56,691 nt of DNA. It comes from Desulfobacteraceae bacterium (GTDB lineage: Bacteria; Desulfobacterota; DSM-4660; Desulfatiglandales; Desulfatiglandaceae). The notes under the pieces are model-generated. The model was not told the DNA's origin and searched no databases. It saw only the letters and a list, made by a program, of their open reading frames with translations. The position numbers were made by a program, and so were the translations under genes. Location of the stretch: NCBI GenBank assembly GCA_030613055.1, contig JAUWMR010000025.1:1-56691 (forward strand), given 5' to 3'. Positions 1-13,530 of this stretch are shown piece after piece (positions within the stretch are counted from its first letter, which is position 1; each line of letters begins with the position of its first letter).

Positions 1-135
1 TCCACTGTAAGCATACTCCTTTCACCTCCGGCAAGTGGTTTTGACATGTCAAATACCTTTTACCAGAAGTCAGCTTCGGGTGGGTCAATTTTGGGTTAGC
101 GTTTGCCCTTTAGGTGGGTCAATTTTAGGTTAGCA
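1..135. repeat. Window edge with two direct repeats, likely end of a second mobile element
   Basis: Two near-identical copies of a 22-bp unit with core GGTGGGTCAATTTT lie at 79-100 and 113-134, and the second abuts the point where the IS1-type transposase coding sequence breaks off. Multiple short direct repeats near a terminus are known for IS21-like elements, so an element lying mostly left of the window may have inserted into the transposase gene; that is inference because no second transposase is visible. A perfect palindrome, TTGACATGTCAA, lies at about 44-55. No gene is seen here. Confidence 0.4.
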
Positions 136-575
136 AAACCATCAAGATAAGCTTTATGACCATCTGTTGTAAGCTGTACCTTGTTCTTTAATCTTGATGC
201 CAGATCCTTAATAAATACTGTAGCTGTATCAATAGTCCTATCACCAACAAACCATGAAGGAACAAGCTTAGTATCTGCATCGATAGCCGTCCAAGTCCAT
301 ACATCACCATATCCAAACTGACCTTTAAATTTTTCAGGAACATTCTTTTCTTTGGCATAACAAAAAGACCAAATTTCATCACATTGAATTTTTTTAGAAG
401 TGAGATTATGAAAAGCCTTGTCTTGATATTCAGAACATTTCTTCCCTACGTCTCTGAGAAGCTTAAGTACTGTGTTTTTTGACACGTCATTAATGCGAGA
501 AGTTGCATTAATACCCATACCTTCTACAAGGCATCTAAGGATTTGCGCTCTCCGCTCTGTGCTTAATTTATTCAT
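96..575 (-). pseudogene. IS1-family transposase, C-terminally truncated
   Basis: The 159-residue frame begins with a helix-turn-helix-like N-terminus (residues about 5-45) and continues into an IS1-type DDE catalytic domain, with a first acidic residue in CDEIWSF and a second in TTDGHKAY. Full IS1-family proteins of this long type continue for roughly another hundred residues and carry the last catalytic acid there; here homology-like sequence stops after AYLDG and the final residues are encoded by the repeat at the window edge. It should therefore be inactive. The start ATG is preceded by a GAGGTG ribosome site. The element seems broken by a later insertion. It marks the left end of an accessory patch reaching about 1.8 kb. 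Confidence 0.75.
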
Positions 576-708
576 GGCACACCTCTTTTTTGATTGTTGG
601 TTGTGACCATTATGCTTGAGCGGTTAAGCTTTGTCAAGTAAAAAATGCACCTTGTTAAAAAAAATAGATTGACAAAAATCTTTCCCTGTACTATCTTGTA
701 TAAACCAA

Positions 709-784
709 TGGAGCCGCTACCGGGAATCGAACCCGGATAAAAGACTTGACGAGGGTCTTTACTTTTCCATAAAGCTATAGCGGC
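709..784 (-). tRNA. tRNA-Thr-like gene, anticodon CGU, with aberrant anticodon arm
   Basis: A 76-nt cloverleaf can be drawn: a perfect 7-bp acceptor stem (GCCGCTA with TAGCGGC), discriminator U73 and encoded CCA, a 4-bp D stem with a short GG-containing loop, and a perfect T arm (CCGGG, TTCGATT, CCCGG). The start and acceptor resemble bacterial tRNA-Thr. The anticodon arm is odd: either a 9-nt loop on a 5-bp stem, or a 7-nt loop closed by a C-A mismatch with one extra base before the stem. With U33 in place the anticodon reads CGU (codon ACG), followed by C37 where a purine is normal. It lies 4 nt downstream of the class II tRNA on the same strand, so the two are probably cotranscribed. It may be degenerate or specialised. 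Confidence 0.6.
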
Positions 785-788
785 TCTT

Positions 789-882
789 TGGAGGAGACGA
801 AGGGATTCGAACCCTTGGTAGGTGTTGCAGCACCTACATCCGATTATAAGTCGGGTCCTTTAAACCGCTCAGGCACGTCTCC
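789..882 (-). tRNA. Class II tRNA-like gene, Ser-like body with anticodon UAU
   Basis: A 94-nt class II cloverleaf: a perfect 7-bp acceptor stem (GGAGACG with CGTCTCC), discriminator U73 and encoded CCA, a 3-bp D stem with a Ser/Leu-like loop, a perfect T stem and loop (AAGGG, TTCGAAT, CCCTT), and a long variable arm of 7 perfect pairs (GTAGGTG with CACCTAC). The anticodon loop is CTTATAA, giving anticodon UAU, which would read AUA (Ile). The anticodon stem and flanks match tRNA-Ser(GCU), as if GCU had been replaced by UAU. Normal bacterial tRNA-Ile is class I, and tRNA-Ser normally has G73. Charging identity is unknown. The stop codon of the upstream 165-residue gene lies in this anticodon loop. 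Confidence 0.65.
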
Positions 883-1341
883 TGTATCACCATTAGACTC
901 TGTCTCATCCATATGGGGGACAGAGTCTTTATTTTCATTTTGTTTTATTTTATATCTTTTCAATTCTTTTCCTTCTTTTATAGCAATAATTTCCCCCCTA
1001 TTTTCTAATGTTTTTAACCTACCATATATATCTGACTTAATAGATTTTGAGTTTGACCGGAAGCCGTTCTCTGATAATTCCTTTAATAATTGATCTCTTG
1101 TCATTTCCCCCTTATCAGTTAAGGCTAATAAAAGTGCTTGAGGCCAAGTCATATTATAATACTTATTGTTTTTGACAGTTATATCGGTAATGGGGGAAGT
1201 TTCCCCACTAGATATAACCCCTTCATTAAGCATTTCAAATGCTTCTTGCAGAACATCCCTTTTGTGTTTTGAATCTGCTAGTTCTTTTTCTAGTACCGAA
1301 ATCTTATCATTATATTGGGTAAGTAAAGTTTGTAAATCCAT
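844..1341 (-). CDS. Coiled-coil plus winged-helix protein ending inside a tRNA gene
   Basis: A 165-residue protein of unrecognised family. Residues about 1-45 look like a coiled coil rich in K, E and L. Residues about 65-135 look like a winged-helix domain (a PQALLLALTDKG start, a central SIKSDIYGRLKTL helix and a basic wing), similar in pattern to HARE-type or transcription-factor-like helix-turn-helix domains. A strong AGGAGG site precedes the ATG. The last dozen or so residues are translated from the 5' half of the downstream class II tRNA, and the TAA stop is in its anticodon loop, a 39-nt overlap on the same strand. The original C-terminus may have been lost when the tRNA-bearing DNA joined. 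It may belong to the accessory patch at the left edge. Function unknown; DNA binding is inferred. Confidence 0.7.
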   Translation of the reverse strand: MDLQTLLTQYNDKISVLEKELADSKHKRDVLQEAFEMLNEGVISSGETSPITDITVKNNKYYNMTWPQALLLALTDKGEMTRDQLLKELSENGFRSNSKSIKSDIYGRLKTLENRGEIIAIKEGKELKRYKIKQNENKDSVPHMDETESNGDTGDVPERFKGPDL

Positions 1342-1536
1342 GAGGTATCCTCCTGTTAGGATTTGTATTTTATGCTACTTATTCTAGTGATTTATTTGAA
1401 TATGTCAATAGAAAAGTAGAAAGATTACTACAGGTTCTATTAAGATATTAGAAATAAAGATAGTATGGATTTACAATATATAATAAATTCAATAAGATAT
1501 TGTAGCAGGAGGGATTATTAAAAAATTTATAGAATA

Positions 1537-1785
1537 TTATTTTTTAGTATTTTCCCAACGGACTTTGGCAGCTTTACGGGCAATCTCACTTCTTTTCCTC
1601 TCGGAAAGCTTTTTAGCTCTGGCTGGTCCGCCCTTAAGACCACCAAGGCGACCAAGGGCAACAGCATGGGGGTTTTTATCGGAAGGTGTTTCCTTAATAG
1701 GATTTTTACCTGTAACCTGTTGAACTATACTATAAGCAAGTTCATTTAGGTCTTTTCTTTTTTTGATAGGTTTTTTATCAGTCAT
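1537..1785 (-). CDS. Small basic protein with GGLKGG repeat-like motif
   Basis: An 82-residue, strongly basic protein. The C-terminal half carries the motif series GRLGGLKGGPARAKKLS, then an RxxIARKAAKVRW-like segment. This motif combination recurs in many small bacterial proteins of unknown role on chromosomes and mobile elements; nucleic acid binding is often supposed because of the charge. The N-terminus is lysine-rich (KKPIKKRKDL). No clear ribosome site precedes the ATG, so the start is less certain. It is flanked by AT-rich DNA without genes (1342-1536 and 1786-1929). It lies between the accessory patch and ftsH and has no obvious operon partner. Confidence 0.65.
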   Translation of the reverse strand: MTDKKPIKKRKDLNELAYSIVQQVTGKNPIKETPSDKNPHAVALGRLGGLKGGPARAKKLSERKRSEIARKAAKVRWENTKK

Positions 1786-13453: not shown

Positions 13454-13530
13454 CGGGACGTGGCTCAGCCTGGTAGAGCACCGCGTTCGGGACGCGGGAG
13501 TCGCTGGTTCAAATCCAGTCGTCCCGACCA
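13454..13530 (+). tRNA. tRNA-Pro (anticodon CGG)
   Basis: A complete 77-nt cloverleaf: acceptor CGGGACG with CGTCCCG, discriminator A and encoded CCA, D arm GCTC-GAGC, anticodon stem CCGCG-CGCGG with loop TTCGGGA (anticodon CGG, reading CCG), and T arm GCTGG-CCAGT with TTCAAAT. All stems pair well. A rho-independent terminator follows 12 nt later. Confidence 0.97.

Follow-up and report, generated by a model that had tools for sequence, protein, structure and literature searches.

The window considered here, i.e., the whole analysed stretch of 56,691 nucleotides from a Desulfobacteraceae bacterium (assembly GCA_030613055.1, contig JAUWMR010000025.1), contains three tRNAs recognised by ARAGORN: 709-784 (-), named 'Thr(cgt)', 789-882 (-), named 'Ile(tat)', and 13454-13530 (+), a tRNA-Pro. 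The first two, hereafter tRNA2 and tRNA1, are separated by a few bases and occur in a group of genes and predicted signals comprising the following features.

96..575, minus strand: truncated IS1-like transposase of 159 aa, downstream of tRNA2 and on the same strand
669..697, plus strand: antisense sigma-70-like promoter, TTGACA-N17-TATCTT, with a predicted start at about 704, shortly ahead of the tRNA2 3' end
704..945, plus strand: antisense RNA of about 240 nt, predicted from the promoter above and the hairpin below, complementary to tRNA2 and tRNA1
709..784, minus strand: tRNA2, class I tRNA-like, with the 9-nt anticodon loop CCTCGTCAA
789..882, minus strand: tRNA1, class II, with a Ser-type body, anticodon UAU, 7/5 acceptor/T layout, U73 and an encoded CCA
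844..1341, minus strand: ORF of 165 aa, with a predicted N-terminal coiled coil and C-terminal winged helix
895..928, plus strand: antisense terminator-like hairpin, located between tRNA1 and the body of the ORF, with a 12-bp stem (G-T allowed), a 10-nt loop and a T-rich tail
1381..1408, minus strand: sense sigma-70-like promoter preceding the ORF, TTGACA-N16-TAGAAT

A basic ORF of 82 aa (HAVALGRLGGLKGGPARAKKLS...), without Pfam match, is located upstream of this group at 1537-1785 (-).

With respect to its structure, tRNA1 is covered by the Rfam model RF00005 from 882 to 792 with 56.9 bits (E 1.1e-9), above the gathering cut-off of 29. Watson-Crick pairs occupy 26/27 positions of its stems, including the whole of the acceptor (7/7), D (3/3), variable (7/7) and T (5/5) stems, and the sole break, C27.A43, occurs in the anticodon stem. 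Depending on the host tRNA used for comparison, identity reaches 72% with Ser(GCU), 71% with Ser(GGA), 69% with Tyr, 57-66% with Leu and 49-60% with Ile, so that the class II body is nearest to the host Ser tRNAs. Like canonical tRNA-Ser, tRNA1 possesses a 3-bp D stem, a long paired variable arm and a 7/5 acceptor, and its relatives share G73, but tRNA1 itself differs by U73, by the anticodon UAU in place of a Ser anticodon (NGA or GCU), by being extra to the host set and by its mobile context. The original prediction had described just such a molecule (class II, Ser-like body, UAU, U73, 7/5) with perfectly paired acceptor, T and variable arms, and this description is borne out by ARAGORN, Rfam, the stem pairing and the host comparison. 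However, its statement that the anticodon stem matches tRNA-Ser(GCU) fails for the host's own tRNA-Ser(GCU), the stem of which reads CTCGC/GCGAG. A class I re-fold with another anticodon, which it had named as a refutation, is rejected since both ARAGORN and Rfam return the class II fold. A phage origin was also discarded, no close match to a named phage being found and the best one, a Rhizobium phage tRNA-Ser(act), attaining only 74%.

Among 85 genomes of the class, a single homologous locus was identified, in a genome of the same family (G042, locus L286), with 75% identity over 242 bases and the same gene order: ORF, hairpin, class II UAU tRNA and 'Thr(cgt)'-like tRNA. The acceptor stems differ between the window and G042 by paired changes (GGAGACG/CGTCTCC versus GGAGGGT/ACCCTCC, and GCCGCTA/TAGCGGC versus GCCGCTG/CAGCGGC), and the T stems show similar compensatory differences. 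The two loci have essentially the same anticodon arms and share the 9-nt tRNA2 loop (AAGAC-CCTCGTCAA-GTCTT); the G042 homologue of tRNA1 carries G73. A search for homologues, suggested beforehand as a check on decay, thus yielded G042 and the wider family described below; because these homologues exist and keep their stems through compensatory changes, the decay envisaged in the original prediction did not materialise. Judging from the aligned sequences, the pattern is that of a conserved folded RNA and not of decay, and tRNA1 is to be regarded as a genuine tRNA gene, kept intact under evolution.

Among long-variable-region tRNAs with the anticodon UAU, pattern scans distinguish two classes, A and B. 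Class B is of the Ser type with G73 and comprises nine relatives of tRNA1, found in Marinobacter iranensis (L263), an Acidobacteriaceae metagenome-assembled genome (MAG, L268/L369), a virus-classed contig (L315), genomes G772 (L365) and G515 (L366), three genomes from the family of the Acidobacteriaceae MAG (L375-L377) and G042 (L286). G73 occurs in 9/9 relatives, that is, in 9/10 sequences once the window is added, and the 7/5 pairing in 10/10, with stems totalling 245 Watson-Crick, 8 GU and 3 AC pairs. The tRNA-specific loop nucleotides T8, A14, G18 and the T-loop TTC-A are kept in the tRNA1 family (seven sequences). The constancy of UAU across class B is not a finding, because the anticodon was fixed in the searches. 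These tRNAs are rare, with 1/395 genomes of the phylum under a strict pattern and 1/245 in the order to which the Marinobacter genome belongs. Class A consists mostly of phage tRNA-Ile(UAU) with A73 and an additional hairpin inserted into the variable region; examples are L048-L166 and L307-L351 from IMG/VR, L178, L205, L216 and L225 from genomes and, for a named phage, Acinetobacter phage vB_AbaS_qsb1 (PV107591.1, 38075-38162). A YWGAUND motif occurs in 73/86 distinct class A variable regions, forming in 71/73 cases the 7-nt loop of a hairpin with a stem of 3 bp or more, where GAU, an Ile anticodon, occupies the position that the anticodon has in its own loop. This hairpin, of which no description was found in the literature searched, may serve IleRS as a second anticodon-like signal. 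The UAU anticodon and the long variable region are common to tRNA1 and these phage tRNAs, but the latter differ by A73, by the GAU loop of their insert and by their location in phage tRNA arrays.

The host genome yields 46 tRNA matches that add up to an ordinary set without gaps, among them four tRNA-Ser, tRNA-Ile(GAU) and three CAU tRNAs, one of them Ile2-like as judged by eye, and TilS is present above the cut-off. Owing to this full set, the Ile2-type CAU tRNA and TilS, tRNA1 is not required for AUA decoding, in line with the earlier view that it does not act as an ordinary Ile decoder. The inspection of AUA usage proposed at that stage gives, over 34 window ORFs, a frequency of 21.5 per 1000 codons, AUA making up 28% of the Ile codons; because AUA is common in these genes, an active Ser-tRNA(UAU) is expected to be harmful and to need control. 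In the ORFs of the module the AUA codons fall at Ile-like hydrophobic positions, and the idea that AUA stands for Ser in the element's own genes was rejected on that account.

The 165-aa ORF overlaps tRNA1, its stop codon TAA falling within the tRNA1 anticodon loop CTTATAA in both the window and G042. AlphaFold2 models it with a mean pLDDT of 69.8 as a helix 3-42 followed by an H-S-H-H-S-S succession at 66-132, and the top Foldseek matches are mostly winged-helix DNA-binding proteins, with E values no better than 3.5e-3; a coiled coil followed by a winged helix is thus predicted with moderate confidence. No Pfam or NCBIfam family matches the ORF above cut-off, and tblastn against plasmids gave a single weak match, near which no tRNA was found. 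An ORF of this coiled-coil/winged-helix type, the winged helix being read by eye, adjoins tRNA1 in 5/10 loci (window, G042, L315, L263 and L268); these ORFs are too diverged for BLAST, and the model of the L315 ORF is poor.

A tRNA2 with an enlarged anticodon loop adjoins tRNA1 in five loci, with loops of 9 nt in the window, 9 in G042, 8 in L268, 17 in L315 and about 55 in L376, the last three being assigned by eye. The 19-nt anticodon arm of the window tRNA2 is identical in G042 (L286 1619-1695), and this exact arm is absent from IMG/VR. On the reverse strand of L376, at about 1321-1450, this tRNA-like sequence lies between the UAU tRNA and an IS1595-type transposase, its normal D and T arms surrounding the some 55 nt that replace the anticodon loop. 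Two other virus-classed contigs (L399, L490) carry tRNA-like sequences whose anticodon loops are enlarged, with a promoter-like antisense site downstream. Enlarged anticodon loops are known from frameshift suppressors.

On the opposite strand, the antisense promoter of the window keeps 24/30 positions in G042 (TTGACA-17-TATATT), and comparable promoters occur in L315 (TTGACA-17-TATCTT) and L263 (TTGACA-17-AATAAT), in all four cases just past the last tRNA. Each of these four modules also has a T-tailed hairpin in the antisense direction before tRNA1, and the predicted antisense RNAs measure about 230-242 nt and begin near the 3' end of tRNA2. Promoter and terminator were found together, by one script, in the 4 modules versus 0/45 host tRNAs and 4/1173 phage tRNAs, according to criteria drawn up post hoc, after the pattern had been noticed in these loci. 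Because the window and G042 are homologous, the four modules represent three independent cases, and the predicted promoter-terminator association, although strong, is a post hoc one. No antisense promoter was found in the remaining six loci (the Acidobacteriaceae loci L268 and L375-L377, G772 and G515). In IMG/VR, a pattern combining the promoter with an anti-T-arm retrieved at least 120 stretches, and no new module was recognised among the few inspected. The original prediction, which does not mention tRNA2, is right in seeing an intact tRNA and is incomplete in that tRNA1 is one part of a mobile module also comprising tRNA2, the winged-helix ORF and the predicted antisense RNA.

The transposase of the window scores 63.6 bits with NCBIfam IS1, under the cut-off of 100, and matches Pfam DDE_Tnp_IS240 with E 2e-5, just below the cut-off. 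Two 27-nt direct repeats at 74-134, 89% identical and 34 bases apart, lie near the contig start and coincide with the early end of the transposase frame. A full-length relative of this transposase occurs in L315, where the order ORF, tRNA1, tRNA2, transposase is the same as in the window. In L369 the entire module is flanked by inverted repeats of 37 nt, about 3 kb from each other and with 86% complementarity, which also enclose an IS1595 transposase (188 bits); comparable repeats were looked for around the window and G042 modules, and none was convincing. The UAU tRNA directly follows a transposase in L376 and L377 and a transposase fragment in L375, these enzymes resembling the L268 one as judged by eye. 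In L375 and L377, strong hairpins whose loops share TTGGAC/GTCCAA separate the transposase or its remnant from the UAU tRNA. These loci represent a rare module, horizontally spread and often located beside or inside IS1/IS1595-type transposons.

In this respect, tRNA1 recalls the allo-tRNAs. According to the review PMC7609411, which relates here the work of Mukai et al. 2017, UAU ranks with the most predominant anticodons of the 8/4 allo-tRNAs, no other group is as abundant as allo-tRNA(UAU) in metagenomes from soil and sediment, an allo-tRNA(UAU) pseudogene of Edaphobacter C40 overlaps an ORF for a transposon-related protein, and polycistrons containing irregular tRNAs have been reported. The same review states that the allo-tRNA(UAU) group could not be used in E. 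coli translation and that two allo-tRNAs with non-serine anticodons insert serine in E. coli. The features shared with the group, as described there, are the Ser-like class II body, UAU, an overlapping ORF with a transposon-related gene close by (the IS1-like remnant of the window, IS1595 in L268, and the transposases of L375-L377), the accompanying irregular tRNAs and the presence of Acidobacteria among the hosts. However, the module tRNAs have a 7/5 and not an 8/4 or 9/3 acceptor branch, intact instead of disrupted stems and hosts beyond Acidobacteria, and the module adds the winged-helix ORF and the predicted antisense promoter and terminator. The 7/5 layout had been put forward as setting tRNA1 apart from the 8/4 and 9/3 allo-tRNAs; this holds structurally, but not in the sense of an unconnected molecule, since UAU is common among the 8/4 type and that group is tied to transposons. 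tRNA1 may be classed as an intact 7/5 variant of the transposon-associated allo-tRNA(UAU) kind. No description of the winged-helix ORF, the antisense promoter/terminator pair or the IS1595 inverted repeats was found in the literature searched.

The interpretation tentatively favoured, possible though well short of probable, is that of Ser-type miscoding tRNAs residing in a transposon-linked module and held in check by the predicted antisense RNA. The sense strand would provide a winged-helix DNA-binding protein, which may regulate the module, an AUA-reading Ser-type tRNA and an enlarged-loop tRNA-like RNA, while the opposite-strand promoter would give a short RNA complementary to both tRNAs, keeping them silent or unprocessed. 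SerRS does not read the anticodon; upon loss of the antisense RNA it would charge tRNA1, well for the G73 relatives and weakly for the U73 copy of the window, which may be attenuated, and serine would be placed at AUA codons, while tRNA2 may disturb the reading frame. Of the charging by serine or leucine initially proposed, only the serine part is retained, LeuRS being unlikely because all relatives have G73 and not A73. The points counted for miscoding are a tRNA1 extra to the host set, the frequency of AUA, the compensatory changes with G042, the recurring antisense signals, the nine G73 relatives, the ORF at five loci, the enlarged-loop partners, the inverted repeats of L369 and the serine incorporation by allo-tRNAs. 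Against it count the U73 of the window tRNA1, a poor SerRS determinant, the six loci missing the antisense promoter and the Ile-like positions of AUA in the module ORFs; the reported inability of the allo-tRNA(UAU) group to serve E. coli translation (PMC7609411) also argues against an active miscoding tRNA. Such an arrangement would resemble a type I toxin-antitoxin pair by its predicted convergent promoter and antisense RNA over a presumed effector, a likeness of sequence signals only, and would differ by having as toxin a miscoding tRNA pair instead of a small membrane peptide. That the whole is a transposon-spread toxin-antitoxin-like module, with an RNA effector (the AUA-miscoding Ser-tRNA and the enlarged-loop tRNA), an antisense RNA antidote and a winged-helix regulator, is rather unlikely.

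In the main rival reading, the RNAs work for the mobile element rather than in translation, their tRNA-like folds being scaffolds for processing or stability (RNase P/Z sites, anticodon-loop inserts) and the opposite-strand RNA perhaps the main product. It is hardly less probable than the favoured interpretation: the tRNA2 anticodon loops differ greatly in size and sequence, the modules lie in or beside IS1/IS1595 elements, the antisense promoter has its start where tRNA2 ends, and a UAU group unused for translation in E. coli is reported (PMC7609411). However, the retention in tRNA1 of its tRNA-specific loop nucleotides and the near-constant G73 speak against it, as does, weakly, the excess of GU over AC pairs (8 versus 3), which favours the sense strand; an exclusively antisense function was set aside on the same weak tilt. 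A decayed or functionless tRNA-Ser copy, merely spread by transposons, would account for U73, C27.A43, the enlarged loop of the partner, the truncated transposase and the sporadic occurrence, but this explanation, already weakened by the compensatory changes at 75% identity, the intact stems of ten tRNAs and the recurrence of the architecture in unrelated genomes, is unlikely.

It is quite improbable that tRNA1 serves as a sacrificial substrate, whose cleavage by an anticodon nuclease, or by some other defence directed at tRNAs, would be sensed. The anticodon arms of the window and G042, essentially identical while the bodies diverge, would suit such a decoy, and the winged-helix protein could relay the signal, but no such nuclease gene was apparent to the eye in those neighbourhoods that were read, and the anticodon arm of tRNA2 varies between distant modules. 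Nothing supports the primer role that the original prediction had also raised. A true AUA decoder charged with isoleucine, as the long-variable-region tRNA-Ile(UAU) commonly carried by phages appear to be, would explain the anticodon; this reading is highly improbable, given that the phage tRNAs combine A73 (105/116 long-variable-region UAU tRNAs) with the GAU hairpin, whereas the tRNA1 family has U73 or G73, a Ser-type body and no such loop, and that the host already has an Ile2-type CAU tRNA and TilS.

Transposon-linked UAU tRNAs are reported to be abundant in soil and sediment metagenomes without an accepted role. The definition of a module made of an ORF, two tRNAs and a predicted antisense RNA supplies testable parts and a candidate control element, and the question of whether these tRNAs are miscoding toxins, decoys or RNAs of the element would become answerable through expression and charging experiments.
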